From: Maribacter zhoushanensis
Lineage (GTDB): Bacteria; Bacteroidota; Bacteroidia; Flavobacteriales; Flavobacteriaceae
DNA: 64,000 bases
Direction of reading: 5' to 3'
Assembly: GCF_029350975.1 (NCBI RefSeq)
Contig: NZ_JARKMR010000001.1
Coordinates: 1,178,001 to 1,242,000, forward strand
Shown here: piece by piece, positions 9,727-39,554 of the stretch
Layout of the letters: the number at the start of each line of letters is the position of its first letter
How positions within the stretch are numbered: the first letter of the stretch is position 1
Position numbers and translations under genes: made by a program
The notes under the pieces: generated by a model
What the model was told of the DNA's origin: nothing
The model's database searches: none
What the model saw: the letters and a program-made list of their open reading frames with translations, nothing else

Positions 9727-9736
9727 ATGATGTTGT

Positions 9737-14794: not shown

Positions 14795-17700
14795 ATGAAA
14801 AAACTTAAACTATTAATGGTATTCCTTTTATTGGGCATGTCATCGGTACTATTGGCGCAGAGTAGCGTTACGGGTACGGTGGCAGATGACCAGGGTATGC
14901 CAATTCCAGGAGCATCTATTGTAGTAAAAGGAACATCAAACGGTACCGTAACAGATTTTGATGGAAATTTTAGTATTTCAGTAGAGAGCGGAAATGTACT
15001 TAGTATCTCTTACTTAGGTTATAAGCCTGTAGAGGTAACTTATTCTGGGCAACCTAATTTATCGGTTACTATGACAGAAGATAGGGCGCAACTAGATGAA
15101 GTTGTAGTTATTGGTTATGGATCTGTAAAGAAAAGTGATTTAACAGGTGCAGTTGCCTCGGTCGATAGTAAAACGCTTACCGAACAAAGAAAAACAGATT
15201 TAGGTCAGGCAATACAAGGCCGTATTGCGGGTGTAGATGTTAGAACATTAAACTCTAAACCAGGTGCACCGTTGTCTATTAAGATTCGTGGTAATACGGT
15301 AATTACGGCAAATCAAGGTAATGAGCGTGATGGTGTTAGTGATAACTTAGCTGACGACCCTTCTAAACCTTTATTTGTAGTAGACGGTATATTTTTCGAC
15401 GATATAAGTGTTCTTAACCCTGCTGATATTGAGCAGATGGATATTTTAAAAGATGCTTCTGCAACTGCTATCTATGGTTCTAGAGGGGCGAACGGGGTTG
15501 TAATCATAACTACTAAAAGTGGTATTGAAGGTAAAACTGTTTTTACCTATGATTCTTCTTTTGGTCTACGTTCTGCAACCAATGTACCAGAACTGTACTC
15601 AGGTTCTGAATATGTTGCGTTTGTTGATGACGTTCTAAGAGCACGTGAGTGGCTAGGAACAGATAGAACTGTTGCATCATATAATAATATAGCGGTAGAT
15701 AGATCTACAGAAATTCAATCATCTAACGAAGAGGCATCTAATGTTGCCAATGGTAGATATACAGATTGGATGGACCTTTTTAGAAAATCTGGATTGCAGA
15801 CCAGCCATACCGTAGGTATGTCAGGCGGTAGTAACGGTTTAGTGTATAACGGTTCTATAGGTTATTTGCATGATGAAGGGGTAATGGGTATTGAAGAATT
15901 TGAAAGGTATAATATTAGTGCTTCGTTATCCAAAAAAGTATCTGATAAAGTTACCGTAGGTATTAAAACCTATTTGGCGTTATCAGAAAGAGAGCAGGGA
16001 AGTAGAGAATTGTTTAGAAGTACTTTGCGTTTGGCGCCAACGGTAAATCCGTATGATGCAAATGGGGAGCCAATACTTTTTCCGGATGATCAAGATTTAA
16101 GGTTTGTAAACCCAATTTATGATGCAGAAGGAGCTTGGAGAGTTAATAATAGGTCTTTAGATGTTATTGCAAATGTTTTCTTTAACTATAAGCCTAATGA
16201 TTGGATCAACTTTAAAACACAATTTTCTCCAAATATTAGTTCTGATCGCTTTGGTGAGTACCGTGGTTTGTTGACAAAATCTTCTAGAAACGATCCATCA
16301 AGAATACGTTCTTACTATGAATCTGGTTTTGACACCTCTTATACTTGGGATAATATTGCAGATTTTAATTTTGATATTGCAGAAGGGCATAACCTTAAAA
16401 CAACCTTAATTAATTCTTTATATTATTCAAACCCTGAGGGCAGTAATATTCAGGTTAGGGATTTTGATACAGATGCTTACTTGTTCTTTAATACACAAGC
16501 AGGGTCAGATGTGCCAAATGATTATGGCAGTTTCTATGAAAAAGAAACATTGGCTTCTTTTGCCGGTCGTTTAAATTATAATATACAAGATAGATATCTA
16601 TTCACATTTACCGGTAGGTATGACGGATCTTCTAAATTATCTGAAGGTAATAAATGGGCATTTTTTCCATCAGCAGCTTTTGCATGGAAAGCAAGTGAAG
16701 AAACCTTTTTAAAGGATGTAGATTGGTTAAGTAATCTGAAATTAAGATTAAGTTATGGTGAGTCTGGTAATGATAAAACGGTAAACCCATACAGCTCATT
16801 GGCATTCTTATCTCAAGAGAGTTATTTATTTGGAGATGAATTTAGCATTGGTAAATCTGTTGCAGGTCTTTCAAATGCAGATTTGACATGGGAAGTTTCA
16901 AAGGAATATAACTTTGGTCTTGATCTTTCAGTCTTTAATAATAGAATTAATTTTGGTTTTGAATATTACAATAAGAAAACGGAAGGCAGTATTCTTGCCC
17001 GTCAATTATCTTTTGTAACCGGTTTTGGTGATTCTGGAACGGTAGGTAATTTTGGATCTGTTAGAAATAAAGGTGTGGAAATCACCTTGAATACGGTAAA
17101 TGTACGTACTGATGATTTTTCATGGCGTACCAATTTCAACTTCACAAAGAACGATAACGAGATTATAGAACTTTTTGATGGTCTTGATCAAATTTTAGTA
17201 GGTACTGATTCTAGATTGAACGGTGTATTACAAGTGGGTGCGCCAATTGATGCTACTTTTGATTATGAGGTAGATGGAATTTGGCAAATAGACGAAGCGG
17301 CTGAGGCAGAATCTTTTGGTCTTTTACCTGGGCAATATAAGTATGTTGATCAAAACGACGATGGTGTAATTAACCAAGATGATAAAAGAGTACTTGGTTC
17401 ACAATCTCCAGATTGGATTGCGGGTATGACCAACACTTTTAATTACAAGAATTTTGAAATGAATGTTCAGGTAAACACAAGACAAGGTGTTTTTGGACAC
17501 TCTGAATTTCATCAAAATTTTGCCACTTTTAATGGTGATGCAGCAGTATTCAATAGCTTAAAGCAGGATTATTGGACACCTAATAATCCAGATGCAAAAT
17601 ACCCATCTCCAGAGTATGGCGAATCTGCTTACCCTTGGTTTTATGAAGATATGTCTTATGTGAGAATTGGTAATATAGGGTTGGCGTATTCTTTCCCTCA

Positions 17701-17872
17701 AGAGCTTTTGGACAAATTCAAGATGTCTAATCTACGTCTTTCATTAGATGTTCAAAATCCGTTCACATTTACAGATTTTGCAGGTCCAGATCCAGAAACA
17801 GGATTACAGAATTCCTACAACATGGGGTATTCGGTTAAAACAGTTTTGTTCGGGTTAAAATTAGCATACTAA
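14795..17872 (+). CDS. SusC/RagA-type TonB-linked outer-membrane transporter
   Basis: This 1025-aa protein has a signal peptide (cleaved after LLAQ, about residue 21), a CarboxypepD_reg-like domain (about 25-105), a TonB box region around DEVVVIGYGSVKKSDLTGAV (about 101-120, the SusC signature), a plug domain (to about 235, with ILKDASATAIYGSRGANGVV) and a 22-strand barrel to the C-terminal aromatic end (LFGLKLAY). It imports oligosaccharides or glycolipid headgroups across the outer membrane with its SusD partner 18 bp downstream. It heads the PUL operon and has an AraC-type site in its leader. Confidence 0.95.
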   Translation: MKKLKLLMVFLLLGMSSVLLAQSSVTGTVADDQGMPIPGASIVVKGTSNGTVTDFDGNFSISVESGNVLSISYLGYKPVEVTYSGQPNLSVTMTEDRAQLDEVVVIGYGSVKKSDLTGAVASVDSKTLTEQRKTDLGQAIQGRIAGVDVRTLNSKPGAPLSIKIRGNTVITANQGNERDGVSDNLADDPSKPLFVVDGIFFDDISVLNPADIEQMDILKDASATAIYGSRGANGVVIITTKSGIEGKTVFTYDSSFGLRSATNVPELYSGSEYVAFVDDVLRAREWLGTDRTVASYNNIAVDRSTEIQSSNEEASNVANGRYTDWMDLFRKSGLQTSHTVGMSGGSNGLVYNGSIGYLHDEGVMGIEEFERYNISASLSKKVSDKVTVGIKTYLALSEREQGSRELFRSTLRLAPTVNPYDANGEPILFPDDQDLRFVNPIYDAEGAWRVNNRSLDVIANVFFNYKPNDWINFKTQFSPNISSDRFGEYRGLLTKSSRNDPSRIRSYYESGFDTSYTWDNIADFNFDIAEGHNLKTTLINSLYYSNPEGSNIQVRDFDTDAYLFFNTQAGSDVPNDYGSFYEKETLASFAGRLNYNIQDRYLFTFTGRYDGSSKLSEGNKWAFFPSAAFAWKASEETFLKDVDWLSNLKLRLSYGESGNDKTVNPYSSLAFLSQESYLFGDEFSIGKSVAGLSNADLTWEVSKEYNFGLDLSVFNNRINFGFEYYNKKTEGSILARQLSFVTGFGDSGTVGNFGSVRNKGVEITLNTVNVRTDDFSWRTNFNFTKNDNEIIELFDGLDQILVGTDSRLNGVLQVGAPIDATFDYEVDGIWQIDEAAEAESFGLLPGQYKYVDQNDDGVINQDDKRVLGSQSPDWIAGMTNTFNYKNFEMNVQVNTRQGVFGHSEFHQNFATFNGDAAVFNSLKQDYWTPNNPDAKYPSPEYGESAYPWFYEDMSYVRIGNIGLAYSFPQELLDKFKMSNLRLSLDVQNPFTFTDFAGPDPETGLQNSYNMGYSVKTVLFGLKLAY

Positions 17873-17890
17873 TACTAAAAAAAATTAAAG

Positions 17891-19537
17891 ATGAAACTAT
17901 ATAAAAACATAAAGGTTGTAGCAGTGGCGCTTACCCTATCGCTGTCGTATGCCTGTAACGATTATTTAGAAGAAGATATTTTTTCTGACATTACATCAGA
18001 GAATTTTATAGACCAAAATAATGCAGATCAATTAGTTGTTGGGGTATACAGTAGTTTGCGTGATGTATATCGTGATTATACGTATCAATTTTTTGGTACT
18101 GATATTTTTGCAAGTCAAAGTGAGGCATTTTCCTTTAGCCCAACAAACGATTATTTTAACCTTAACTCGGGAGAAGGTTTATCGGTATGGTCCAATAATT
18201 ACAAAGTTATAAGTAAGGCGAATACCGCAATTAGTAGGTATACCGAACAAATTAGTTGGAGTGATGCCAATTTAGATCAAAGAGATTATGGTATTGCCCA
18301 GGCACAGGCATTAAGAGCTTTGGCTTACTTTAATTTGGTTCAACAATATGGCGGCGTTGTCATTGAATTAGAAGAAGTACAGACCATACGTACAGATTAT
18401 GCAAGATCTACCGAAGCAGAAACTTATGCACAGATCATTACAGATCTAGAAGCTGCAATACCTGTTTTATTGGATGACCCCGGTACAGGAAGATTTTCTA
18501 AAAGAGCTGCACAGCATTTATTGGCACAAGTTTATTTAACAAGAGCATATACCGCTGCAGGTAGTTCTGCAGATTTTACTACTGCCGCTGCACTTGCAGA
18601 ACAGGCAATTGGTAATTACGATATACGTAGCCAGTCATATGCAGAAGTGTTCGATTATGATAACCAGGAAAATGATGAGGTTTTGTTTGCCATACAATAT
18701 GGTAACAGTGGGCTTACTGCAGATAAGAGCAATAACAAGCATTCATTATTTATGAACCAGGTTTTTAATTATCCAGGTGTAAATAGAACAACGACACCTT
18801 ATGGGGTAAGTGGTTTTGAAGCAATGCCTACACCTTTCTTTTATTCTTTGTTTGCGGATAACGATACAAGAGAAGATGCAACTATTCACCGTGCAATTAT
18901 TGCTGATAGTGATGAGCCAGATGGTCCTGATAATATTGTTGCAGGTGATACTATTGTATACTATCCAAAAAATGCATTAGATGCAGATGAGCTTGCAGAG
19001 CGTTTAGATCGTTACTGGGTATATCAACCAGATCAATATCTTTTTGGTTTGCCAGATGATGTGCCAGGAGTTAACTATTTATATTCATTGAACATTGAGC
19101 GCACAAATTTTCCAATTTTCAAGAAGTTTGATGATCAGGATTTCAATGAAGATACGGATGGTGCTAGAGATACTTTTGTATTTAGGGTAGCTGGCACACA
19201 TTTACTTGCTGCAGAAGCTTACTTAGGTGCCAGCAATACAGCATCAGCTTTATCACACATCAATATTGTGAGAGAAAGAGCTACGGGTGTGGCAAATGAA
19301 TATACTTCTATTACCATTGATGATATCTTGAACGAAAGAGCTATTGAGCTTGCAGGTGAAGAAAACAGATGGGCGGTACTTAAAAGAACAGGTAAGTTAG
19401 AAGAGCGTATAGATTTATACAACCCTCAAGTAATAGACCATGGTGCTTTTGATAGTAGTATTCATTTATTAAGACCTATACCGGCTAATGAATTACAATT
19501 ATCAGATGGTTCTTTAGTTCAAAACCCAGGTTACTAA
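17891..19537 (+). CDS. SusD/RagB-type surface glycan-binding lipoprotein
   Basis: The 548-aa lipoprotein (SLSYACNDYLEE, Cys22) has the SusD helical TPR scaffold: an N-terminal NADQLVVGVYSSLRD helix region, the RALAYFNLVQQYGGV motif (about 139-152) and the C-terminal SusD domain with AAEAYLGAS, INIVRERA and ILNERAIELAGEENRWAVLKRTG (about 480-505). It closes the lid of the SusC barrel and binds the glycan substrate. Adjacent to susC and followed by a stem-loop, which may lower expression of the downstream enzymes relative to susCD. Confidence 0.95.
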   Translation: MKLYKNIKVVAVALTLSLSYACNDYLEEDIFSDITSENFIDQNNADQLVVGVYSSLRDVYRDYTYQFFGTDIFASQSEAFSFSPTNDYFNLNSGEGLSVWSNNYKVISKANTAISRYTEQISWSDANLDQRDYGIAQAQALRALAYFNLVQQYGGVVIELEEVQTIRTDYARSTEAETYAQIITDLEAAIPVLLDDPGTGRFSKRAAQHLLAQVYLTRAYTAAGSSADFTTAAALAEQAIGNYDIRSQSYAEVFDYDNQENDEVLFAIQYGNSGLTADKSNNKHSLFMNQVFNYPGVNRTTTPYGVSGFEAMPTPFFYSLFADNDTREDATIHRAIIADSDEPDGPDNIVAGDTIVYYPKNALDADELAERLDRYWVYQPDQYLFGLPDDVPGVNYLYSLNIERTNFPIFKKFDDQDFNEDTDGARDTFVFRVAGTHLLAAEAYLGASNTASALSHINIVRERATGVANEYTSITIDDILNERAIELAGEENRWAVLKRTGKLEERIDLYNPQVIDHGAFDSSIHLLRPIPANELQLSDGSLVQNPGY

Positions 19538-19892: not shown

Positions 19893-21938
19893 ATGATTAA
19901 AAAAAATATAATAATACCATTTCTCTTATTGCTTACTTTCTGCATCTCTTGTAGTAATAATGCAGAACAGCTATCGTCTATTTGTATAATTCAAGGTATA
20001 CATGCTACAGATGTAGAAAAGTCTACTATCAATGACTTGAAAAACGATTTACAAAAAGTTTTAAATGAAGATGTTCAGATAATTAATAATGAAGATACTG
20101 TTCCCAAAAATGCTTTGATTTTTATAGTAGGAACTGCAAATTCTAACCCTGTTATCGCAGATATGTTGTCTAATGATGATTTAGACTTAACAGATGAAAA
20201 TCGATTGTCAGGCAGTGGTTCATGGTCTAAAAATACTTTTAATGGCTCTAATGCCATAGTAATTACCGGTGCTGACGTGAAAGGACTTCAACGTGCGGTA
20301 TATGATTATTCAAAAGAAATATTGGGTGTGGATCCTTTGGCATATTGGACAGGTAAAAATCCTGTAAAAATAAAAGCGACCGAGGTTTACAATTTTAAGT
20401 CAAAGACCATAGCACCCCCAAAAGTACCAGAACTTACATATTTTGAAAATGATGTAGATGAGCTTGCCAATTATAGAGGTGAACTTTTAAAGTACGACTG
20501 GGAAAGTTATACTGAAATGATTAATTCATTGGTACGCTTAAGATATACTTCTATTCAGCTTTTTGATATGCTTGGCAGACCTGAGTTTTATATTAGACCA
20601 GAGTACAAAAAGCTAAATCCAGATTATCAAATAGATGTTGACTATGTGGAGAAAATGATAGACTATGCGCATACAAAAGGCATGAAAATAGCCGTTGATT
20701 TTGCTCTTGGTTATCAAATACATCCCATGGATGCTGAAAAAGCAGATTGCTGGAAACTACATAAAGAAGATTGGCTAAAAGCATGGCGCTACTATTTTGA
20801 ACATACACCATTAGCAAAAACGGATATTTTTATTTTAAGACCTCGCCACCAGGTGTGGGACTGGGAATATGAAAGTACTTGTGGTGAAAGTAAAATAGAT
20901 GTGTTCAATGAGGTTTATGCCGCTTTTGGTATACTGGTAGATGAATATAAACCCAATGCGGAAAAAGTATTGGTTTGTTATTCTGATGGTATGGAAATGT
21001 GGAATGAAGGTTTTAGACCTCCAGAGGATTGGACCGTACTTTGGTCTGATCACGGTTTTGGTGATTTTGAGCACCTGCCGAACACTACAGATGATTATGA
21101 GTTTGGTACTTATATGCATGCTGGTTATTGGTTGAACCATACCGTTCATAATCCTTATCCAGAGAAAGTGGAGTCTGTAATGAAAGAGATGTTCAATACT
21201 TACAATGCAGATAAGTACTGTTTGGTAAACGGACAGAATTTTAGACCATTTTTATTAAATCTAGAGGCTTATAGTGAGGTGTGTAACAATCCAGAAACTT
21301 TCAATGCAGACCTCTTTTATAAGGAATGGACAGAACGTTATTTTAGCAAAGAAGCAGCAGAACATGCCGTAAAATCTATGAAGCTTCTAAGCGAGGCTCA
21401 GGAAGGTAGAAAAGGATATGTTGAACATTTATGGGAAATTAGAGAGGCAGTTTCTTATCTGTCTAATGCACCAATTATTAGACCGGGAAAATCACCGGTT
21501 CCTTTTGATTACGAGCGCGTAATAGGTGATGTGGAGAATGTAAAACGAGTAAAGGAAGTTTTAGAGAAATCACTTTCAGAAGCAGAATTAGGATATGAAC
21601 TATTGAAGAGAAACGATAATTTCTATCACTCTTATATTTTGCTACCTGCCCAATTATATTCAGACTTAATAGCTTTTGAAACAGTGTTGCATAACATGGC
21701 ACTGTTGAAAAAAGAGTATGAAACTACCAAGAATCAAAAGTATTTGAACCAGGCTAAAGCTATGTTGCCAAAGGCGAGAAAAGATCTTGATATCATATTT
21801 GAGCATAGAAGTTCTGGAGATATTGAAGATAAATGGAAAAATTGGTATGCCATAGGCAATAGAAGACAGAACAATGGTTTTCCAACTTATGAAATGCTTA
21901 ATGCAATAGAGGCTAATCTAAATAATATGACACTTTAA
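19893..21938 (+). CDS. GH115-like lipoprotein, putative alpha-glucuronidase relative
   Basis: The 681-aa lipoprotein (FCISCSNN, Cys20) has an alpha/beta N-terminal domain (about 25-150) ending in the ADVKGLQRAVYDYSKEILGVDPLAYW stretch's GH115-like pattern, then a TIM-barrel-like region (about 170-450). The barrel parallels the full GH115 protein at 27932-30922: a wide LVRLRYTSIQLFDM strand matches LLRLRANTIWPAM, and DKYCLVNGQNFRPFLLNLE matches DIWILNCGDIKPHEYNIE. It lacks the C-terminal GH115 domain and shows no close match to the GH115 active-site motifs. I infer a remote GH115-clan hydrolase; it could define a separate family. Two bp of the intergenic gap precede the GH92 frame. Confidence 0.55.
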   Translation: MIKKNIIIPFLLLLTFCISCSNNAEQLSSICIIQGIHATDVEKSTINDLKNDLQKVLNEDVQIINNEDTVPKNALIFIVGTANSNPVIADMLSNDDLDLTDENRLSGSGSWSKNTFNGSNAIVITGADVKGLQRAVYDYSKEILGVDPLAYWTGKNPVKIKATEVYNFKSKTIAPPKVPELTYFENDVDELANYRGELLKYDWESYTEMINSLVRLRYTSIQLFDMLGRPEFYIRPEYKKLNPDYQIDVDYVEKMIDYAHTKGMKIAVDFALGYQIHPMDAEKADCWKLHKEDWLKAWRYYFEHTPLAKTDIFILRPRHQVWDWEYESTCGESKIDVFNEVYAAFGILVDEYKPNAEKVLVCYSDGMEMWNEGFRPPEDWTVLWSDHGFGDFEHLPNTTDDYEFGTYMHAGYWLNHTVHNPYPEKVESVMKEMFNTYNADKYCLVNGQNFRPFLLNLEAYSEVCNNPETFNADLFYKEWTERYFSKEAAEHAVKSMKLLSEAQEGRKGYVEHLWEIREAVSYLSNAPIIRPGKSPVPFDYERVIGDVENVKRVKEVLEKSLSEAELGYELLKRNDNFYHSYILLPAQLYSDLIAFETVLHNMALLKKEYETTKNQKYLNQAKAMLPKARKDLDIIFEHRSSGDIEDKWKNWYAIGNRRQNNGFPTYEMLNAIEANLNNMTL

Positions 21939-21948
21939 ATTGAATTTG

Positions 21949-24276
21949 ATGACATTAGCTAATACATTAAAATACAGCGTTGTCCTATTGGGTATTTCAA
22001 TCTTGTTTTTTGGTTCGTGTAAAAAACAGCCAGATAATAACGAGGTAATAGATTCTCAAGAGATTGATTATACTGCCAAAGTGTACCCGCTTTTAGATAC
22101 TGAAAACTCAAGATGGTTCTACTTCTCATCTGCAAGTAGGCCTTTTGGTATGGTGAACCTTAGTCCAGATACCCAAATTGGCGGTGCTTGGGGTAGCGGT
22201 TATCGTTATAAAACAGATACCATTAAAGGTTTCAGCCATATTCATGCATGGCAGATGTCAGGTATTTCAGTAATGCCGGTTACAATCAACGATCAAACCA
22301 AAGAAGGTATTTTTAACGACTTTTATTCTAAGTTTAGCCATGATAATGAAGTGGTTATACCAGGTTACCATAAAGTGGAATTGGAACGTTATCAAATAGA
22401 AGCTCAACTATCGAGTACCAAAAGAGTTGGTTTTCATCAGTATATATTCCCCGAGAATGAAGAAGAAAAAGCAGTGCTTTTTAATTTAAATACGCTATTG
22501 GGTCCAAGTAAAAATATAGATGGATTTTTAGAACAGAATTCAGAAAATGAGCTTTCTGGAAAAGTAACAATGGAACCAACGCATAGACGTCCAAAACCTA
22601 TGACCGTTTATTTCAAGGTACAGCTGAATACTAAAATAACTTCTGTAAATAAAGATGACAGTACTGGGAATTACCTTGTTGTATTAGACGAAAATAATAG
22701 CGATGTGTTAATGAAAGTGGGCATTTCTTATACTTCTGTTGCCAATGCAGAACTTAATATAACAACAGAATTACCTAACTGGAAATTTGATAATATTAGA
22801 AGTGCAGCAAAACAAGAATGGAATAGTTTATTGGGCAAAATAGATGTCAAAGGCGGTTCTGACCAAGATCAAAGAAGATTCTATACAGATTTATGGCACG
22901 CACTACAAGGTCGTAGAATTATAAATGATGTAAATGGTGCTTATCCAGATAATACTGGGAAAACTTTTAGAATAGGACAATTGCCTTTAGATGAGAAAGG
23001 CAATCCTAAATTCAACCATTATAATTCAGATTCTTTCTGGGGAGCTCAATGGACGTTGAATACGCTGTGGGGCTTGGCGTATCCTGAAATTATGTATGAG
23101 TTTTCTAATTCATTAATGCAGTACTACAAAGATGGTGGTTTGGTGCCAAGAGGTCCTTCTGGGGGTAATTATACCTATGTAATGACGGGCGCAACTTCTA
23201 CTCCTTTTCTGGTATCGGCAATTCAAAAAGGAATACTTGTAGACGAGTTGGAAACGGTGTATCAAGCTTTAAAGAAAAATCATGAAGCTAGTGGTATAAT
23301 GGGCAAAGCTGGTTACGAGCATACTACTGATATTGGCGGAGGTTTACAATATTATATGAATGATGGTTATGTGCCTTACCCCATTCCTGAAGGTAAATTT
23401 GGTAGCCACCAAGATGGTGCAAGTTTAACAATGGAGTACGCTTACCAAGATTGGACTTTGGCACAATTAGCTAAGAAGTTGGGTCATAGTGAAGATTATG
23501 ATTATTTCTTAAAAAGATCAGAGAACTATAAGAATGTTTATGATGTGGAAATAGGATGGATGCGTCCCAAAGATGTTAAAGGTGAATGGAAAGTAGATTA
23601 TGATCCTTACCAAGCAGAAAATGGTTTTATAGAATCTAACGGAGCACAATCTACATGGTTTGTCCCTCATGATATAAAAGGATTGGCAAACTTAATGGGT
23701 GGTAAGAATGCTGCCATAAAAAAATTAAACGAGCAATTTACAACGGCAGCAAAATTGAATTTTACCGCTGGTACATCGCATTCTGCAGAGCTTCATCCTG
23801 AGTATAGTAGAATTCCAATCAATTTTGGGAATCAGCCTTCTATCCAAACCGCATTTATTTTTAATGAATTGGGTAGACCTGATCTAACTCAATATTGGTC
23901 AAGAAGCGTGGCTACTTCCGTGTTTGGTGGTTTGTCACCATCTACGGGGTATAATGGCGATGAAGACCAAGGATTAATGGGCAGTTTGGCTGTACTGTTG
24001 AAGATAGGTCTTTTTCAAATGAATGGTGGTACAGAGGCTAATCCTGAGTACCAGATTGGAAGCCCAATTTTTGATGAGGTTACTATTAAATTAAATAAAG
24101 ATTTTTATAATGGCGACTTATTTACCATAAAAGCTAACAACAATAGTGATGCTAATTTTTATATATCAGAGACTGAGTTCAATGGAACGTCAATAAAAGC
24201 TAATAGCTTAAGACATGAAGATATTGTAAAAGGAGGCGAGCTGAATTTGAATATGGTTTCAAAACCTTTAAACTAG
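21949..24276 (+). CDS. GH92 family glycoside hydrolase (exo-alpha-mannosidase)
   Basis: GH92 enzymes are calcium-dependent exo-alpha-mannosidases. The 775-aa lipoprotein (GSCKKQ) shows the N-terminal sandwich start ASRPFGMVNLSPDT (about 62-75) with GYRYKTDTIKGFSHIHAWQMSG, the barrel motif RRFYTDLWHALQGRR (about 305), NSDSFWGAQWTLNTLWGLAYPE (about 358-379) and the C-terminal GYNGDEDQGLMGSL (about 663), where GH92 has its catalytic acidic residues. ATG 21949 is preferred to the TTG at 21940. It follows the GH115-like gene after 10 bp. It likely trims terminal alpha-mannose from the substrate. Confidence 0.9.
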   Translation: MTLANTLKYSVVLLGISILFFGSCKKQPDNNEVIDSQEIDYTAKVYPLLDTENSRWFYFSSASRPFGMVNLSPDTQIGGAWGSGYRYKTDTIKGFSHIHAWQMSGISVMPVTINDQTKEGIFNDFYSKFSHDNEVVIPGYHKVELERYQIEAQLSSTKRVGFHQYIFPENEEEKAVLFNLNTLLGPSKNIDGFLEQNSENELSGKVTMEPTHRRPKPMTVYFKVQLNTKITSVNKDDSTGNYLVVLDENNSDVLMKVGISYTSVANAELNITTELPNWKFDNIRSAAKQEWNSLLGKIDVKGGSDQDQRRFYTDLWHALQGRRIINDVNGAYPDNTGKTFRIGQLPLDEKGNPKFNHYNSDSFWGAQWTLNTLWGLAYPEIMYEFSNSLMQYYKDGGLVPRGPSGGNYTYVMTGATSTPFLVSAIQKGILVDELETVYQALKKNHEASGIMGKAGYEHTTDIGGGLQYYMNDGYVPYPIPEGKFGSHQDGASLTMEYAYQDWTLAQLAKKLGHSEDYDYFLKRSENYKNVYDVEIGWMRPKDVKGEWKVDYDPYQAENGFIESNGAQSTWFVPHDIKGLANLMGGKNAAIKKLNEQFTTAAKLNFTAGTSHSAELHPEYSRIPINFGNQPSIQTAFIFNELGRPDLTQYWSRSVATSVFGGLSPSTGYNGDEDQGLMGSLAVLLKIGLFQMNGGTEANPEYQIGSPIFDEVTIKLNKDFYNGDLFTIKANNNSDANFYISETEFNGTSIKANSLRHEDIVKGGELNLNMVSKPLN

Positions 24277-30922: not shown

Positions 30923-32751
30923 GCAGGTCGGTTATAAAACTACCAAGAGTTATATGCTTTTTTTTGGTGTTATTTATAAGTCTCTCTTGTAGTAATAAAC
31001 AGGAGACGGAATTTGAAGAAGTAAAAATTGCATTCATTGCAGATGCACATTTTCAAGATATCTATGCCCAGTTTAATGATGCCGATTATAAGGGTATATT
31101 GAATACGGAAACGGGAGATTTTGTAAACATACGTACCATGAATGCCCAGTTAAAGTCTACCCGTATCTTCAATGAAAATTACTTTGCATTTATTGAAGCC
31201 TTAGATGATATTGTAGCTAGGGGGATAAAATATGTTGCGCTTCCAGGAGATTTTAGTGATGATGGTCAACCTGTACACGTTAAAGGATTGCGCAAGATTC
31301 TAAATCAATATTCCAAGAAATACGGACTTTTATTTTTTGCGACAACCGGAAATCACGATCCCGTAAAACCTTTTGAACAAGATGCTGGTAAAACAGACTT
31401 TTTAGGTGTTGGTGGCAAAGAGCAGATTATTACTAGCAATAAAAGAAATGTAAAAAATACATCAGCGGATCAGCTTACACCTATTATAACAGAAGAAATA
31501 AAAAAATGGGGCTATAAGGATATCTTAAATGAAATGTCTGCATTTGGGTTTTACCCTCAGAAAGAATATTTGTATTGGGAGACTCCTTTCTCTAAATACA
31601 CTTATAATGAATACACTTTTGGGAAAGCTGAAAAAGCAGCTGTATTAGGCAATAGAACCTATGCTGTAGATGATTATAACAAACACCCAGATGCTAGTTA
31701 TTTAGTAGAACCAACAGAGGGTATTTGGCTTTTGGCTATAGATGCCAATGTATATGTTCCTAAAGAAAAAATGACATCATCTTCAGAAAATGGTAATGAT
31801 TTTGAAAGTGCCAGTATAGGTTATAATAATGTGATTTTACAAAAACGCCATTTAATAGATTGGGTAAAGAAAGTAGCTGAGAAAGCCAATAAAATGAATA
31901 AGGTGTTGATTGCTTTTAGCCATTATCCTATGGTAGATTTTAATGATGGTGCCGCTACTGAAATGAAACATTTTTTTGGTGAAAAGAAAATGCAGTTACA
32001 TCGGGTGCCAAATGTGGAAGTAGCCGAAACGTTTGCCAATGCAGGTATTCAAATTCATTTTGGTGGTCATATGCATATTAATGATACCGGTGTTTATGAA
32101 AGTGCAAAGGGTAATACATTGTTCAACATACAAACACCTTCACTTGCTGCCTATGCACCGGGTTATAAAGTTTTGTCGATTCGTTCAAAAACAAGGTTTG
32201 AGGTAGAGACAGTGGTGATAGAAAAGGCAAAAGATTTTAATAGTCTGTTTTCTTTGTATGAAGAAGAATATGCTTATTTATTAGAAAATGAAACTCCGGA
32301 TATTTGGAATAAAGACATTTTAACCGCTGAAAATTATAGAGATTTTACGCAGTGGCATTTAAAAGAATTGGTGAGGCTTAGGTTTATACCAGATGATTGG
32401 TCAAGCGAATTTTTGACCGAATTTGTAAATAAAACAGGGAAAGAATTGATACTTGAATATTCGGGTCATTTAGATGAGGAGACTAATAATATAGTACCGG
32501 ATGATTTTAAGGGTTGGACAGGTATTGATTTGATCTATGATTTTTACAGATTACGAAGTGCAGATGAATTGGCTAAAGTAGATATTGGTAACCATAGGCT
32601 GCAGCAATATAAAATAGTATGTAATCTATTGAAAACATCTCATATCAAAGCTATTGGTAATTGGGCGGTCATTTTTGAAAAAGCAATGAACGGTGAGCCT
32701 TCCGATCATTTTGTAATTGATATAATTGAAGGGTCTATTAAAGAACTATAG
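30877..32751 (+). CDS. secreted metallophosphoesterase
   Basis: This 624-aa protein has a lipoprotein signal (FISLSCSNKQ) after a somewhat long basic N-terminus. The calcineurin-like phosphoesterase motifs are all present: IADAHFQD, LPGDFSDDGQP, TTGNHDP, AFSHYPM and FGGHMHIND. These hold two metal ions and hydrolyse phosphomono- or diesters. The start overlaps the GH115 gene by 46 bp; ATG 30877 is the last in-frame ATG before the signal peptide. The context suggests dephosphorylation of the inositol phosphate released by the neighbouring PLC, or removal of other phosphate groups; this is inference. No strong terminator was seen between it and the regulator gene. Confidence 0.88.
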   Translation: MEKELRVSKGNNDKISRSVIKLPRVICFFLVLFISLSCSNKQETEFEEVKIAFIADAHFQDIYAQFNDADYKGILNTETGDFVNIRTMNAQLKSTRIFNENYFAFIEALDDIVARGIKYVALPGDFSDDGQPVHVKGLRKILNQYSKKYGLLFFATTGNHDPVKPFEQDAGKTDFLGVGGKEQIITSNKRNVKNTSADQLTPIITEEIKKWGYKDILNEMSAFGFYPQKEYLYWETPFSKYTYNEYTFGKAEKAAVLGNRTYAVDDYNKHPDASYLVEPTEGIWLLAIDANVYVPKEKMTSSSENGNDFESASIGYNNVILQKRHLIDWVKKVAEKANKMNKVLIAFSHYPMVDFNDGAATEMKHFFGEKKMQLHRVPNVEVAETFANAGIQIHFGGHMHINDTGVYESAKGNTLFNIQTPSLAAYAPGYKVLSIRSKTRFEVETVVIEKAKDFNSLFSLYEEEYAYLLENETPDIWNKDILTAENYRDFTQWHLKELVRLRFIPDDWSSEFLTEFVNKTGKELILEYSGHLDEETNNIVPDDFKGWTGIDLIYDFYRLRSADELAKVDIGNHRLQQYKIVCNLLKTSHIKAIGNWAVIFEKAMNGEPSDHFVIDIIEGSIKEL

Positions 32752-32832: not shown

Positions 32833-35800
32833 ATGCGAAATTTTCTAGGCATATTTATCAGCGTATTATTTTTTGTAAAATGTCTGGTTGCCCAAGATAT
32901 TAAGTTTGAACACTATAATGACGATAATGGGTTGTCTCATAATGCCGTCCGCCACATTGTTCAAGATAAGCACGGTTTTTTATGGCTGGGTACTTTTGCC
33001 GGTTTAAATAGATTTGATGGCTATGAGTTTAAATCTTATTTAAGTTCTTCTACTGATAAAACAAAACTGCATAACGACGATATTACAGCTTTAGAACTAG
33101 ATGAGGAATCTAATAATTTATGGATAGGAACTAGAAACGGTTTGTCTCTTTTTAAGACCGACACCTATACTTTTAAAACATTTTTGCCAGATGAGAACAA
33201 TCCTAATAGTTTACCAGAGGGTGAAATACGTTCTGTTTTTGTAGATAAGTTTAAAAGAATTTGGGTAGGTACAAAGAACAGCGGACTTTATATTTTAAAC
33301 CATAATACAGATGTTTTCAATAAGGTTGAAATAAAGAATTTCAATTACATTAAAGAAATTGTTGAAGATAAGAACGATGATATTTGGATTGGTAGCTACG
33401 AATCTGGAGGTGTTGCAAAACTAACGCTTGGTGCAGAAGGGGAAATTGTTCAAAAATACATTTACAACCTATCTATAATAAATTCAGTGGAGAAGAATCC
33501 ATATTTGAATTTTATATATGAAGACGCAAAATCAGATATTTTTATAGGTACAAGAGAAGGTCTGTACAAGCTAAATAAAACGACCAATAAATTTGATAAT
33601 CTAGAAATTAAGGATACTGAAATTAAAGAAGGTCTAGGACCTTATTTTCTTTCTGTAGCACAAGCGCCAGACGGGAAATATTGGGTAGGTACACTTGGTG
33701 GTTTAATTGTTTGTGATCAATTAGAAGATATTGAAGAGGGTGAGTTTAAATGGCATTATTCCGTACTCCCTGATGATACTTCTTTAGTGGACAACTTGGT
33801 ATCAGCTTTGTTTTTTGATGCTTCAGGGGTGCTATGGATAGGTACTGAAGATGGTTTGGATAAGTATGATCCATTTGAAAATCAGTTTAATAGCAATAAG
33901 GATATTTCGCTGCATATTAATAATCAGGTACCTAGAATACGTGGGTTTAGTAAAACTTTTGATAATAAAGTGGTTGTGGCAACTAGGCATAACGGACTAT
34001 TTATTTCTGAAGATGAAGATTTTTTACCACTTTATAATAGTCAAAAAGATGTAGCAAGTATTTATTCTACAGATGGTGTTATATTTTACTGTGGTTTATG
34101 GAACGGAAATCTTTTGGTGTATAACTACAAAAATAACACTGCCAAAGAAATTTCTGTTGGTTTTGAACAATCCCCAATTTTTGCTTTTGAGGCTTTAGAT
34201 GAGAATCAGTTAATATTGGGGTCTTTTGGTGAAGGCGCCATGTTGTTAGATACTAAAACCTTAAAAAAGGTAATCGGTACAGATGTAATCTTGCAAGGGT
34301 ACCAAATCAATGAAATTGTCAAACAAAACGATGCCAATATTTGGTTTGCTACAGAAACAGGTGTTGTTCATTTTTTGAAGGATAAAAATACTTTTGAATA
34401 TTATACATCTATTAGTTCACCAGAACCAGGTTTGTTGCATGATAATGTTAGTGACATCATGTTAGATAATGAAAATCGTTTATGGGCTGCGACCAGAAAA
34501 GGTATTAGTCTTTTTGATTTCAAGGAGAATAAATTTAAACCGTTAGAAGAACCCGTTGAACTTAGGGATAAATGGATAACCGATATGCTCACGTACACAA
34601 ATGGTGATATTTGGTTTAACCTAAATAGCAATAGTGTCGCTAGGCTAAAATCTAACTTAAAAAGTTATAATATTTACGATGTTAAAAGTGGTAATAGATT
34701 AGATGTCTTTAGTTCTAGCGGTTTCTATAATTTTCAAAACTCAAATATATATTTAGGAGGTAAAAATGGTATTATTTATTTTTCACCGCATGCTATCAGT
34801 GAAAATAAGATTGCTAAAAAACCTATGATTACCGAATTTAAGATTCAGAACGAGGTAATAAATCCGGGTACTGAAATTAATGGTCAAATACCTTTAGAAA
34901 AAGACTTAAACGAGACCAAGAACGTAAGCTTAGATTATAAGAATAGAAATTTTTCACTTCAATTTTCTGCACCATCGTACGTTAACGAAAAGCTCAATAG
35001 GTTTGAATATATGTTAGAAGGTTTTGACGAAAACTGGATATCTACTACAAGCAATTCTAGAACGGTACAGTATACAAACTTGTTTCCAGGAGATTATACT
35101 TTTAAAATAAAATCAAGCAACAGTGATGGTTTTTGGAGTGATGTAAATTCATATCAAATTTCAATAACACCTCCTTTTTGGTTAACATATCAAGCTTTAA
35201 TACTCTTTTTGGCATTGTTCATTTTAATCATTTATTTGATAAGAAGAGAAATGAAGAACAGGTTGCGATTAAAGCAAGAACTGGTTACAGAAAAGGTAAA
35301 TAGAGAGCGTGATATAAAATTGAATAATGAGAAACTTCGCTTTTTTACAAATATCTCTCATGAGTTGAGAACACCGTTAACATTGATTTTGGGTCCGGCT
35401 AAACAACTATTGGAAGAAAGTAGTGAGAACAGTAGCGAATACCAAAAGAGTAGGTTTAATCTCATACACCAAAACGCTAGTAGGTTACTTAATTTGGTAA
35501 ATCAGGTTCTTGATTTTAGAAAAGCGCAAACCGGGGAACTAAAACTAAAAGTATCTAAAACAGATATTTTAATGTTTACGATGAACACGTTCGAGTCTTT
35601 TAAAGAGTTCGCTTACAACAAACAAATAGAATTAAATATTAATAGTGAAGTAGAGGATTTGTTTGGTTGGATAGATAGAGACAAGTTTGACAAGATTCTG
35701 TATAACCTTTTATCTAACGCCATAAAGTTTACCAATAAATATGGGCATGTTGATCTGTTTATAAAGCTCAAAGAAACCAATAGTGAAATGTTGGTCATTG

Positions 35801-36867
35801 AAGTGAGTGATGACGGTATAGGTATACCCGTAAAAAGCCAGGAAAAAATATTTACCCGTTTTTATCAAGCTACAAATAGTAAAGAAAATAATACTGGGTC
35901 AGGTATTGGCCTTTCTTTGGTGAAATCTCTTGTAGAATTACATAAAGGAACAATCGTTGTTGAAAGTAAACCTAATGAAGGCAGTACATTTACCGTAGAA
36001 ATTCCTATAACCAGAAATAGCTATTCTAAAAAAGAGGTTTTTGAATTTATTTCAAATAAAGAGGTAGAAGAGCCAGAAACATATGTTCCCGTAAAAAGGA
36101 AAACCACAAATACCGAGATAAAAGATAAGGTACTGGTCATTGAAGATAACATTGAACTAAGAAAATATCTTATTGACTATTTATCTGCTTACTACAAGGT
36201 TTATGAGGCAGAAAACGGTCAAGAAGGATTACAGCTATGTAGAAAGATCAAACCCATGTTGTGCGTAGCAGATGTTATGATGCCGGTTATGGATGGTTTA
36301 GAATTTTGTAATGAATTAAAGAATGACGAATTTATAAGTCATATTCCTGTAATTCTACTAACGGCGCTGTCTGAAAACGAGGACAAGGTGAAAGGGTATG
36401 ATGTTGGTGCAGATTCTTATTTGGTAAAGCCTTTTGATCCGTCGTTATTAAAATCGGTAATCGTAAATACCATTAAAACACGATTAGAACTTAAGGCAAA
36501 GTTTTCTGACGAGGTAGAGAGTGAAGTGGGGCTGCTTACACATTCTCCCATAGACAAAGAATTAATGGAACAAATCACCCAGATTATTGAGGATAATATT
36601 GATGACGTTGATTTAACCACCAACTACCTTTGTCAAGAATTAGGTATGAGTTCCTCAAAATTGTACCGTAAAATTAAAGAACTAACAGATTTGGCACCAA
36701 ACGAATTTATTAGAACCATTAGATTAAAGAAATCTGCACAACTGCTAAAGACTAAAAAGTATAACGTGTCAGAAGTAACAGATTTAATAGGCTTTAATGA
36801 TCCACTTTACTTTAGTAGATGTTTTAAAAAACAGTTTGGCTTTCCACCTAGTAAATTGTTGAAATAG
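32833..36867 (+). CDS. hybrid two-component system regulator (HTCS) of the PUL
   Basis: This 1344-aa one-protein sensor-regulator has a signal peptide (CLVAQ), a two-bladed-propeller periplasmic sensor built of Reg_prop repeats (about 25-700; repeated G-W-x-G-T/D-x-x-G-L units), a Y_Y_Y domain (about 716-772), a transmembrane helix (about 786-806), HisKA with the phospho-acceptor His843 (NISHELRTPL), HATPase (about 935-1060; GSGIGLSLV), a receiver domain with Asp1147 (VADVMMPVMDG) and a C-terminal AraC HTH (about 1240-1344). It senses a breakdown product of the PUL substrate and activates susC. The TGTCCAT-N14-TGTCCAT sites upstream of susC are the likely targets. Confidence 0.95.
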   Translation: MRNFLGIFISVLFFVKCLVAQDIKFEHYNDDNGLSHNAVRHIVQDKHGFLWLGTFAGLNRFDGYEFKSYLSSSTDKTKLHNDDITALELDEESNNLWIGTRNGLSLFKTDTYTFKTFLPDENNPNSLPEGEIRSVFVDKFKRIWVGTKNSGLYILNHNTDVFNKVEIKNFNYIKEIVEDKNDDIWIGSYESGGVAKLTLGAEGEIVQKYIYNLSIINSVEKNPYLNFIYEDAKSDIFIGTREGLYKLNKTTNKFDNLEIKDTEIKEGLGPYFLSVAQAPDGKYWVGTLGGLIVCDQLEDIEEGEFKWHYSVLPDDTSLVDNLVSALFFDASGVLWIGTEDGLDKYDPFENQFNSNKDISLHINNQVPRIRGFSKTFDNKVVVATRHNGLFISEDEDFLPLYNSQKDVASIYSTDGVIFYCGLWNGNLLVYNYKNNTAKEISVGFEQSPIFAFEALDENQLILGSFGEGAMLLDTKTLKKVIGTDVILQGYQINEIVKQNDANIWFATETGVVHFLKDKNTFEYYTSISSPEPGLLHDNVSDIMLDNENRLWAATRKGISLFDFKENKFKPLEEPVELRDKWITDMLTYTNGDIWFNLNSNSVARLKSNLKSYNIYDVKSGNRLDVFSSSGFYNFQNSNIYLGGKNGIIYFSPHAISENKIAKKPMITEFKIQNEVINPGTEINGQIPLEKDLNETKNVSLDYKNRNFSLQFSAPSYVNEKLNRFEYMLEGFDENWISTTSNSRTVQYTNLFPGDYTFKIKSSNSDGFWSDVNSYQISITPPFWLTYQALILFLALFILIIYLIRREMKNRLRLKQELVTEKVNRERDIKLNNEKLRFFTNISHELRTPLTLILGPAKQLLEESSENSSEYQKSRFNLIHQNASRLLNLVNQVLDFRKAQTGELKLKVSKTDILMFTMNTFESFKEFAYNKQIELNINSEVEDLFGWIDRDKFDKILYNLLSNAIKFTNKYGHVDLFIKLKETNSEMLVIEVSDDGIGIPVKSQEKIFTRFYQATNSKENNTGSGIGLSLVKSLVELHKGTIVVESKPNEGSTFTVEIPITRNSYSKKEVFEFISNKEVEEPETYVPVKRKTTNTEIKDKVLVIEDNIELRKYLIDYLSAYYKVYEAENGQEGLQLCRKIKPMLCVADVMMPVMDGLEFCNELKNDEFISHIPVILLTALSENEDKVKGYDVGADSYLVKPFDPSLLKSVIVNTIKTRLELKAKFSDEVESEVGLLTHSPIDKELMEQITQIIEDNIDDVDLTTNYLCQELGMSSSKLYRKIKELTDLAPNEFIRTIRLKKSAQLLKTKKYNVSEVTDLIGFNDPLYFSRCFKKQFGFPPSKLLK

Positions 36868-37009
36868 AATGTTTTAGATGTTAATTATTTTTTTGATTAT
36901 CCATATTTATGACAATATTATCCATCTTGTTTTGGCTTAATTGATATACATTGCATGTAGATATTTTTAGGATATCATATCAACTTACTCAAAAACTAAT
37001 TACAACTTT

Positions 37010-37885
37010 ATGGAAAATGCCTTCAATAAACAGAACAACCCCATGGCTGATATCGACGATTGGGAAGATAACTTATTAGAGAGATACCCTAATCCAGAAG
37101 AAATCACAAAAGAAAAAGAAGAGTTTAGAAATTACGTGGACTCAGAAAGGTTAGATACTGTCAAAGAATTCTATAAAATAAACCATCAATTTCAAACCTA
37201 TGATTTTGTAGTTGAAAAAGAGAAGGAGTTTTTGCAGTTCAATAAAAAAGAAATGTCTATTTGGGAAGCGGTGGATTTCCTAAATACCCTGGTAGACGAT
37301 AGTGATCCAGATATTGACCTTGATCAATTGCAGCATTTATTGCAAACTTCTGAAGCAATAAGAGCAGACGGGCATCCAGATTGGTTTGTACTTACCGGTT
37401 TTATACATGACCTAGGTAAAATACTTTGCCTTTTTGGAGAACCACAATGGGCGGTAGTTGGTGATACCTTCCCTGTTGGTTGTGCCTATTCCGATAAAAT
37501 AGTATATCCAGAATTTTTCAGTGCAAACCCCGATGCTACCAACGAAAAATACAATACAAAATATGGTGTCTATGAACCTAATTGCGGATTGGATAAGGTA
37601 AAAATGAGCTGGGGGCATGATGAGTATCTATATCAGATCATGAAAGATTATTTGCCAGAACCGGCACTGTACATGATTCGTTATCATTCTTTCTACTCAC
37701 AACATAGAGAAAATGATTACGAACATTTAATGACAGCAAAAGATATTGAGATGTTTGAATGGGTAAAGAAATTTAACCCATATGATTTATATTCAAAAGC
37801 GCCTGTTCCACCAGATGCAAAAGAATTACTTCCTTATTATAAAGAATTGGTAGCAAAATATTTACCGGAGAAGTTAAATTTTTAG
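37010..37885 (+). CDS. myo-inositol oxygenase
   Basis: Myo-inositol oxygenase (MIOX) is a di-iron enzyme that cleaves myo-inositol with O2 to D-glucuronate in the cytoplasm. The 291-aa protein matches the family length (about 285 in mammals) and shows the iron-ligand motifs: [18 protein letters not shown] (His and HD pair), [19 protein letters not shown] and the late Asp in NPYDLYSK. The substrate-lid segment [15 protein letters not shown] is conserved. It lies immediately after the PUL regulator and before a sodium symporter. It would join released inositol to the glucuronate pathway served by uxuA. A terminator follows. Confidence 0.95.
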
Positions 37886-37909
37886 TTGTTCTAATTATTT
37901 GAGTTTAGC

Positions 37910-37942
37910 AATGCTCTAGCATATTCTACTAGAGCATTTTTT
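37910..37942 (+). terminator. rho-independent terminator after myo-inositol oxygenase
   Basis: A 10-bp stem AATGCTCTAG / CTAGAGCATT with a 9-nt loop is followed by a run of T. It may separate MIOX from the symporter gene or partly attenuate read-through. Confidence 0.85.
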
Positions 37943-37976
37943 TTACCTAATATTTTCAAAACCAACCAATCTACCT

Positions 37977-39554
37977 ATGTATACCGCTATTACATTTATT
38001 GCGTTTACCGCCTTTGTTGCCTTTTATTCATGGTTTAAACTAAGAAAAGAAAAACTGGACTCTAAGGACGGATATTTTCTTGGAGGAAGAAGTTTAACGG
38101 GCGTGGTTATTGCCGGCTCAATGTTATTGACAAATATTTCTACTGAACATTTAATAGGTATGAACGGCTCGTCTTATAAAAACGGGTTCATCATAATTGC
38201 TTGGGAGATAACATCTGCATTGGCATTAGTGGTGGCGGCTATATATTTTGTTCCCAAATATTTAAAAATGGGATTGACCACGATACCCGAGTATTTAGAA
38301 AAAAGGTTTGACAGCACCACTAGAACTTTGGTAGCGCTATTTTTAATGGTTTCCTTCATTATAACATTGCTGCCAATTGTACTTTATACCGGTGCAATCA
38401 ATATTGAAAGTATTTTTAATATATCAGAAGTGCTTGATGTTTCAAAAGAACAAGGGTTGTGGATCACTGTGGTCTGTATAGGTATTCTTGGCTCTATATA
38501 CGCCATATTTGGTGGTCTTAAAGCTGTTGCCATTTCAGACACGATTAATGGCTATGGTTTGTTAATCGGTGGTTTGGCAATACCTATTATAGCTTTATTT
38601 GGTATAGGTGATGGTAATCTATTTGATGGTTTGTCTAAAGTATACAACCATAGCCCAGAGAAATTTAATGTTATTGGGGCTAAAGACTCTGTACTACCAT
38701 TTGAAGTGCTTTTTACAGGGCTTATCATTAATCAGCTATATTTCTGGAGTATGAACCAAACCATTATTCAACGAGCCCTTGGTGCCAAGAATTTGGTAGA
38801 GGCACAAAAGGGTCTTCTCTTTACGGGAGTTTTAAAAATTTTAGTCCCTATAATCATTATTCTACCTGGTGTAATCGCCTTTTACTATTTTGGTGATTCT
38901 CTTTATGACAATCAAGATATGATCTATCCTGAGCTTGTTAAAAAGGTTTTGCCTATTGGTTTTGTTGGTGTATTCGCTGCAATTATTATGGGAGCCGTGC
39001 TAAGCACTTTTAATAGTGTATTGAACAGTGCTGCAACTATTTTCAGTATAGATGTTTTTAAACGGCATTTTGGTAAGAATGCAAGCGATAAAAAATTGGT
39101 AAGAATAGGGAAAATTACATCTACCATTCTTGCGGTGTTTGCTATTCTGGTAGCGCCTATGGTGGCAAATGCGCCAGACGGACTTTATCAGCTATTACAG
39201 CAATTAAACGGTATTTTCTTTATACCGATAGCTTCGATTATGTTAGCAGGTTTCTTTCTGAATAAAGTATCTGCCATGGCTGCCAAAGTAGCTTTGCTTG
39301 TTGGTTTAACGTTCTACATCTTAACTACTTTTGTGTTCAAGGTTGATATTCATTTTGTACATATTTGGGGAATTGAATTTGTTCTAAATGTATTGGTGAT
39401 GTTCATTGTTTCATATTTCTATCCTAATCATAAAGGAACAATAGAAGAAGATCATGATTATGTGGAAATGAAAGAATGGAGGTATACAAAGCCTATGGCT
39501 ATTATCTTATGTATTATTACCGTAGTGATATATGTACTATTGGGTACAAATTAA
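37977..39554 (+). CDS. sodium:solute symporter (SSS family)
   Basis: The 525-aa integral membrane protein has about 14 hydrophobic segments and SSS-family motifs: the DGYFLGGRSLTG N-terminus (about 31-42), TNISTEHLIGMNGSSYKNG (about 53-71), the GGLKAVAISDTINGYG stretch (about 180-195) and LSTFNSVLNSAATIFSIDVFKR (about 343-364). It is in the SGLT-like branch, which includes sugar and inositol transporters. Next to MIOX, the most economical substrate is myo-inositol or a released monosaccharide, but it is not proven. The gap to MIOX contains a terminator, so it may have its own promoter. Confidence 0.88.
   Translation: MYTAITFIAFTAFVAFYSWFKLRKEKLDSKDGYFLGGRSLTGVVIAGSMLLTNISTEHLIGMNGSSYKNGFIIIAWEITSALALVVAAIYFVPKYLKMGLTTIPEYLEKRFDSTTRTLVALFLMVSFIITLLPIVLYTGAINIESIFNISEVLDVSKEQGLWITVVCIGILGSIYAIFGGLKAVAISDTINGYGLLIGGLAIPIIALFGIGDGNLFDGLSKVYNHSPEKFNVIGAKDSVLPFEVLFTGLIINQLYFWSMNQTIIQRALGAKNLVEAQKGLLFTGVLKILVPIIIILPGVIAFYYFGDSLYDNQDMIYPELVKKVLPIGFVGVFAAIIMGAVLSTFNSVLNSAATIFSIDVFKRHFGKNASDKKLVRIGKITSTILAVFAILVAPMVANAPDGLYQLLQQLNGIFFIPIASIMLAGFFLNKVSAMAAKVALLVGLTFYILTTFVFKVDIHFVHIWGIEFVLNVLVMFIVSYFYPNHKGTIEEDHDYVEMKEWRYTKPMAIILCIITVVIYVLLGTN

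Follow-up and report, generated by a model that had tools for sequence, protein, structure and literature searches.

A SusC/SusD locus of Maribacter zhoushanensis with a GH115-like protein and inositol genes: a probable system for glucuronate-linked inositol phosphate glycans

The DNA studied here is a 64,000-nucleotide stretch (positions 1,178,001 to 1,242,000 of contig NZ_JARKMR010000001.1; the window) from the 4.26 Mb genome of Maribacter zhoushanensis, and especially its locus at 14795-39554, all on one strand. In this locus a SusC/SusD pair is followed by a protein resembling glycoside hydrolase family 115 (GH115L), a GH92 mannosidase, a GH3 enzyme, a phosphodiesterase of phosphatidylinositol-specific phospholipase C type (PLC), a canonical GH115, a metallophosphoesterase (MPE), a hybrid two-component sensor-regulator (HTCS), myo-inositol oxygenase (MIOX) and an SSS sodium symporter (Table 1). 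Judging from the sequences, the locus probably serves the use of glycans joined to inositol phosphate through glucuronate (GlcA), most likely the headgroup of the glycosyl inositol phosphoceramides (GIPCs) of algae or plants. A polysaccharide utilization locus (PUL) of this GIPC type was also the original prediction, and comparative genomics supports it with a revision: the canonical GH115 and the GH3 that it counted in are only accessory, and the marker of the system is GH115L.

Conservation of the locus and its link to inositol catabolism

Of 100 nearby genomes, the window genome (G000) included, 14 have the PLC family PF16670, 24 have MIOX above cut-off and ten have a full-length GH115L. 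All three share one locus in eight genomes (G000, G004, G011, G016, G017, G022, G028 and G037), and this co-location exceeds chance. Each of the eight full loci also holds GH92, MPE, HTCS, the symporter, a Gfo/Idh/MocA dehydrogenase and a DUF1080 protein. Canonical GH115 is present in six of them and GH3 in five, both being absent from G022 and G037, so that the genes pointing to xylan are dispensable. G022 has a SusC and a SusD of another type, and GH29 fucosidases are added in five loci (G004, G011, G017 and G037 by Pfam, G028 by profile in stretch L098). The conserved neighbourhood of PLC, MIOX and PUL on which the original prediction was staked is therefore found, in three genus-level settings of one family, and GH115L recurs near MIOX or inositol catabolism (Iol) genes in other lineages as well. 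PLC stands without GH115L in six of the 100 genomes, and the reverse holds for two; in G036 and G046 GH115L sits in a short SusCD-GH115L-GH92-HTCS locus lacking PLC, with a second MIOX type elsewhere. In G041 one stretch (L083 and L091) holds PLC and GH92 together with what look like broken pieces of MIOX and the symporter; its MIOX has two in-frame stops, so that the copy is either decaying or misassembled.

Scanning GTDB genomes with two peptide patterns, which miss distant members and thus give a lower bound, yielded at least 71 related GH115L loci. With groups assigned partly through the GH115L tree, 59 of them belong to Bacteroidota, 11 to Pseudomonadota and one to Verrucomicrobiota. Their flanks, examined up to 10 kb with score thresholds of our own, hold GH92 in 57/71, SusC in 51/71, GH29A in 28/71 and PLC in 26/71. 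At 34/71 loci MIOX is no more than 20 kb from GH115L (six from the relatives above, 12 in flanks by profile, of which L145, L153 and L161 were confirmed by Pfam, and 16 by coordinates, with the contigs matched by length), and ten further genomes carry it farther away or on other contigs. Genome-wide counts cover 69 of the 71 (L126 and L133 were left out). MIOX is present in 44 of these genomes; the 25 lacking it comprise 16 with IolD above cut-off, three with partial IolD and six with neither. MIOX or IolD is thus found in 60/69 GH115L genomes (51/57 in Bacteroidota alone) and in 34 of 296 Bacteroidota genomes sampled evenly (MIOX above cut-off 23, IolD 11), a set that includes three with GH115L. 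The GH115L loci being related by descent, this comparison does not amount to a significance test.

The arrangements differ: MIOX follows HTCS, is divergent from SusC, or stands in the orders GH28-symporter-MIOX or GH115L-MIOX-GH2-GH43, and yet others have Iol clusters. Such variety speaks for GH115L-inositol loci having been assembled repeatedly. On a quick GH115L tree whose 71 rows are the window plus 70 loci, the fragment L164 being omitted, MIOX and Iol labels need three changes each, two of them forced by well-supported branches, in counts that exclude the 30 rows with neither label.

The clusters that pair GH115L with Iol genes bear most directly on the glucuronate. In Rheinheimera (L247) the order is GH115L, a protein with Exo_endo_phos2 and jacalin domains, IolA, IolD, IolC, a regulator, IolB, a LacI-family regulator, UxaC and a UxuB-like gene; L246 has the same contiguous order with GH115L, whole in L247, cut by the contig end. 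UxaC exceeds its NCBIfam cut-off, and the UxuB-like protein has fructuronate reductase as its best match, below cut-off. A search for MIOX in the L246 and L247 genomes gave none. The Iol route from inositol does not pass through glucuronate, and the glucuronate genes of these clusters therefore point to GlcA in the glycan itself. The protein preceding GH115L in Rheinheimera, PHP-like by eye, has no Pfam or NCBIfam match and is not used as evidence. Related combinations occur in L150 (PLC, UxuB-like, UxaC, GH115L and IolA/MMSDH, where the only IolD is partial and lies at a contig end at a distance of 38 kb), in L155 and L157 (UxaC present, IolD 20-22 kb away) and in L159 with its upstream stretch L249 (GH92, GH89, NagX-like, NagA, GH115L, GH43, IolA and IolD, with UxaC on another contig). 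GH2 of beta-galactosidase type is found in L153 and L161. In excerpts of PMC12201980, GIPCs are placed in plants and algae, their sugars are given as arabinose, galactose, mannose and fucose, and the mannose form is ascribed to GMT1. The GH89, GH43, GH2 and GH29 members, by family, would match sugars reported in GIPCs. Enzymes for each headgroup sugar and for inositol use are covered by the loci jointly, no single locus having all; the window locus itself is without GH29, GH43, GH2 and GH89, and its GH92 would fit the GMT1-made mannose form.

Predicted enzymes and the proposed route

GH115L has 681 residues and shares 22% identity with canonical GH115 across 566 aligned columns (98.8% by hhalign); it gives no match to PF17829 (GH115_C). 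Its AlphaFold2 model (pLDDT 87.6) finds only GH115 structures as Foldseek hits 1-11 (E 7.9e-21 to 4.8e-19, TMq 0.58-0.65) and GH67 or GH138 as hits 12-27, and the modelled fold is that of the GH115/GH67 uronidases. In BoAgu115A, Tyr420 and His422 contact the GlcA carboxylate, as described in an excerpt of PMC3879575; their counterparts in GH115L, Y407 and H409, are invariant in 16/16 sequences. GH115 acts on GlcA at O2 of xylose in xylan, according to part of PMC9063842, and the link in tobacco GIPC is given as GlcA(alpha1-2)inositol in the available text of PMC8099651. The simplest reading of the alignment and the model is that GH115L would keep a uronate at the scissile position and take a different aglycone. 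That it represents a cross-phylum enzyme family hydrolysing the GlcA(alpha1-2)inositol bond is quite conceivable, and we stop short of calling it probable.

The catalytic histidine pair of the PLC, called intact in the original prediction, appears to be so: His 35, 65, 126 and 156 are invariant in 15/15 homologues, as are N36, R77, E80 and D82, and we take His 35 and 126 to be the catalytic pair. PLC genes track inositol catabolism: among the 296 Bacteroidota, MIOX or IolD is found in 14/21 genomes with PLC and in 20/275 without it (Fisher p=3e-10; 13/20 with PLC when the window genome is set aside). A Streptomyces enzyme of PF16670 type can cyclise through inositol O6. By analogy, a PLC of this type may suit a GlcA-inositol substrate, attacking through O6 and sparing the GlcA-bearing O2; if the PLC needs O2, GH115L would have to act before it. 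In G268 (L235, 4496-19998) SusC, SusD, PLC, IolB, IolC and IolD are co-directional in a stretch examined without finding GH115L, which is possibly a phosphoinositide locus, and in G298 (L210-L211) a PLC-MPE-HTCS-MIOX module stands with GH92 and GH2 and no GH115L.

The MPE reading frame has no Pfam match of its own at E<=1. It is identified as a metallophosphoesterase because a homologue of 49% identity matches Metallophos PF00149, because the stretches DxH, GD, GNHD and GHMH, which we take to be metal-site motifs, are invariant in 10/10 homologues, and because its model (pLDDT 74.2) matches calcineurin-fold enzymes in Foldseek. There Lmo2642 comes first and, after one weak modelled complex, the acid-sphingomyelinase-like SMPDL3A/B follow, so that, judging by the model, MPE may also act on the sphingolipid's own phosphodiester. 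A sequence comparison of MPE with the PDB returned only ribosomal-protein matches, taken as chance. The true start of MPE is probably downstream of 30823. For the symporter, close homologues inside Iol clusters (951 bits in L242, 968 bits in L243) support inositol as the candidate cargo.

We infer the activities, their order and their localisation as follows. SusC and SusD would bind and import the headgroup, and trimming at the surface or in the periplasm would begin with removal of alpha-mannose by GH92, further decorations being taken off by GH29, GH3, canonical GH115 and the GH78-like protein where these are present. GH115L, as a uronidase-fold enzyme distinct from the xylan GH115, would then cleave GlcA from inositol. 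The PF16670 phosphodiesterase, possibly aided by the sphingomyelinase-like MPE, would free inositol phosphate from the lipid, and MPE would take off the phosphate. The symporter would import inositol for oxidation to glucuronate by MIOX, and this glucuronate and the freed GlcA would both be converted by UxaC, the reductase of the short-chain dehydrogenase (SDR) family and UxuA to 2-keto-3-deoxygluconate. In addition, the Gfo/Idh/MocA dehydrogenase and DUF1080 pair (11734-14483) may cleave a glycosidic linkage in this substrate through 3-keto chemistry.

Competing substrates and points against the GIPC reading

A glucuronate-bearing polysaccharide (xylan, arabinogalactan or algal glucuronomannan) could be the target instead, with PLC, MPE and MIOX forming a separate phosphoinositide scavenging module in the operon. 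The canonical GH115 is closest to BtGH115A, the GH3 is Xyl3A-like, GH67 adjoins GH115L in L151 and L157, and the module does occur without GH115L in G298. Xylan or arabinogalactan as the main substrate is nevertheless not our first choice, the canonical GH115 and GH3 being missing from the full loci of G022 and G037, while GH115L itself tracks inositol catabolism. Moreover, none of the 11 canonical GH115 sites outside the full loci in the 100 genomes, one of them broken by a stop, lies within 20 kb of PLC or MIOX, and we regard this explanation as unlikely. That the target is plain phosphatidylinositol, inositol phosphates or mannosylated phosphoinositides, with GH115L acting on an unrelated acidic sugar, is very improbable: the SusCD-PLC-Iol stretch of G268 and the general association of PLC with inositol catabolism would agree with it, yet GH115L and the uronate genes of the Iol-type clusters would be left unexplained.

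A glycosylphosphatidylinositol (GPI) type glycan of mannose, glucosamine, inositol and phosphate would also account for much of the locus, GH92 taking the mannose, GH115L cleaving glucosaminyl-inositol, PLC cleaving the phosphodiester and UxuA serving MIOX output only. In any case UxuA was rejected as proof that the glycan contains GlcA, since MIOX output alone would explain it. The frequency of GH92 beside GH115L and the presence of PLC agree with a GPI target, as do GH89 in L159 and L165 and NagA and the NagX-like gene in L159. Against it, UxaC lies near GH115L in the Iol-type clusters L150, L155, L157, L164/L246 and L166/L247, and GH115L, a uronidase-fold protein by its model, retains the Tyr and His that bind the carboxylate. 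Since these clusters make no glucuronate from inositol and still carry the glucuronate isomerase beside GH115L, GIPC is preferred to GPI, and a GPI target seems quite unlikely.

Several observations weigh against the GIPC reading. The locus has no feature specific for ceramide, and no ceramidase family was matched in a Pfam scan of 30 of the 43 window reading frames of at least 150 residues; we infer the ceramide part from where GlcA-inositol-phosphate is known to occur, not from a gene. In GH115L, R318 is probably the counterpart of Arg328 of BoAgu115A, an equivalence that rests on one weak alignment stretch, and GH115L has Asp for Glu375, Gly for Asp424 and no certain equivalent of Asp332. 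In the 296-genome sample, PLC and inositol genes lie within 20 kb of each other in only 3/14 genomes with both (G000, G298 and G268). Six of the 69 GH115L genomes have neither MIOX nor IolD, and 11 loci of Zobellia, Pseudozobellia and Arenibacter (L113-115, 117, 119-124 and 126) show no PLC or MIOX in the examined flank, only GH115L-GH92-HTCS with SusCD, the latter cut off in L126. Besides the common descent of the loci, the background of 296 genomes is limited to Bacteroidota. Iol clusters are reported from 33% of Proteobacteria species in the portion of PMC9430895 available, and MIOX or IolD presence therefore means less in the 11 Pseudomonadota loci. L151 and L157, where GH67 adjoins GH115L, are both from Pseudomonadota, and a GIPC substrate leaves this unexplained. 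In Rheinheimera genome G432 UxaC sits on another contig. Finally, Chitinophagaceae-type loci carry sulfatase-family genes (L158 and L162 by Pfam, L155, L156, L160 and L163 by profile). L155 also has a sulfatase-modifying factor (Pfam), and the Chitinophagaceae sulfatases are not explained by a GIPC substrate.

Gene content of the window and comparison with known systems

Table 1. Features of the window, with the basis of each assignment
Feature	Coordinates	Strand	Basis
SDR, second fructuronate-reductase-like gene	4591..5415	+	Pfam adh_short_C2 157.6 bits; putative role
UxuA mannonate dehydratase	7717..8892	-	TIGR00695 583.8 bits, above cut-off
SDR, D-mannonate oxidoreductase (fructuronate reductase) type	8911..9768	-	PRK08277 358 bits, above cut-off
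GH78-like six-hairpin glycosidase	9737..11572	-	PF17389 142.2 bits; missing in G022
Gfo/Idh/MocA dehydrogenase	11734..13089	-	PF01408 62.6 bits; 8/8 full loci
DUF1080 protein, 3-keto-disaccharide hydrolase family	13095..14483	-	PF06439 305.3 bits; 8/8 full loci
SusC TonB-dependent transporter	14795..17872	+	TIGR04056 826.8 bits
SusD surface lipoprotein	17891..19537	+	PF07980 98.8 bits
GH115L, candidate alpha-glucuronosyl-inositol hydrolase	19893..21938	+	PF15979 (GH115 catalytic profile) 65.2 bits, above cut-off of 27
GH92 alpha-mannosidase family	21940..24276	+	PF07971 449.9 bits; closest solved chain 6f8z
GH3 with PA14 (accessory)	24332..26890	+	5/8 full loci
PI-PLC-C1 type phosphodiesterase	26890..27954	+	PF16670 417 bits
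Canonical GH115 (accessory)	27917..30922	+	PF15979 441.3 and PF17829 (GH115_C) 155.2 bits; 6/8 full loci
Metallophosphoesterase (MPE)	30823..32751	+	Pfam match of homologue, invariant stretches, model fold
Hybrid two-component sensor-regulator (HTCS)	32833..36867	+	Reg_prop, Y_Y_Y, HisKA, HATPase_c, Response_reg, HTH_18 (AraC-type HTH)
Myo-inositol oxygenase (MIOX)	37010..37885	+	PF05153 371.4 bits
SSS sodium symporter, candidate inositol importer	37977..39554	+	PF00474 (SSF) 184.4 bits; PRK10484 above cut-off

The genes of the main operon named in the original prediction are all in place by profile matches, MPE via its homologue. SusC and SusD are adjacent and linked to glycosidases (GH115L, GH92, GH3 and GH115) and HTCS, the gene set by which a SusC/SusD PUL is recognised. 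GH3 has the xylosidase Xyl3A as its best NCBIfam relative (758 bits, below the cut-off of 1250), the closest solved relative of the canonical GH115 is BtGH115A (5by3, E=5e-179), and MIOX aligns nearly end to end with the solved inositol oxygenase 2huo (E=5.6e-86), sharing the stretches HDLGK and WGHDEYL. Lipoprotein-like N-termini were seen by eye in GH115L, GH92, PLC, MPE, DUF1080 and the GH78-like protein, and MIOX is without a signal.

UxuA and two candidate fructuronate reductases had been placed in the divergent operon, which runs from 7717 to 14483 and consists of DUF1080, the dehydrogenase, the GH78-like gene, the SDR and UxuA. UxuA and one SDR are borne out. The second SDR falls outside the operon, being encoded on the opposite strand and separated from it by a PVC-type cytochrome gene; a homologue 89% identical to it adjoins the locus in G022. 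The three remaining genes of the operon were not part of the original prediction. Among them the dehydrogenase is related to glycoside 3-dehydrogenases (NF058561 149.6 bits, below the cut-off of 750) and has a Tat-like N-terminus by eye. UxaC lies some 8 kb to the left of the window on its contig, in a stretch (L248) where a TRAP transporter and other uronate genes were read by eye.

Directly downstream of the symporter, tRNA-Arg (acg) at 39787-39861 is a possible locus boundary, and two divergent glutamine synthetase genes, GlnII-like and type III, lie at 42198-45593. In one Maribacter locus a GH88-family gene (L076:12593-13795, PF07470 31.1 bits) follows the symporter, and shorter genes resembling it were seen by eye in G011 and G017. 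Scanning 14300-20000 for promoters and terminators gave 22 promoter-like and six terminator-like sites, where shuffled sequence averaged 22.8 and 3.1, and was not used.

In the open-licence literature we found nothing joining GIPC or myo-inositol oxygenase to PULs, and for GH115 with inositol or GIPC with glucuronidase no such system appeared among the matches listed, judged by title and the start of the abstract. If the GIPC reading is true, GH115L would be a genetic marker, and a full candidate pathway would be at hand, with named, culturable species for testing it. The GH115/GH67 uronidase fold would gain a new specificity, and SusC/SusD loci would be extended to phospholipid headgroups. 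GIPC headgroup structures are said to be largely unknown in the text available from PMC8099651, and the enzymes could help to resolve them.

Among known systems, the Iol clusters described in part of PMC9430895 share the end use of inositol, and the Rheinheimera clusters hold IolA, B, C and D; the window differs in using MIOX, and no GH115-like link was seen in the consulted part of that survey. With the Ca-dependent PI-PLCs of PF16670 (PDB 3h4w and 5fyo) the window PLC has family membership above cut-off in common, whereas the sequence alignment spans only about 100-120 residues and the window gene lies inside a glycan utilization locus. GH115L resembles the alpha-1,2-glucuronidases BoAgu115A, BtGH115A and SdeAgu115A in its modelled fold and its uronate-binding Tyr and His, and it differs in its low identity, the lacking GH115_C match, the Glu375 and Asp424 replacements and its association with inositol catabolism. 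The likeness to the SusC/SusD PULs of Bacteroidota is the broadest, with the SusC/SusD pair, secreted glycosidases, HTCS and a divergent catabolic operon. To these the window locus adds a PI-PLC, MPE, MIOX and an inositol-type symporter, and its predicted target is a phospholipid headgroup in place of a polysaccharide.

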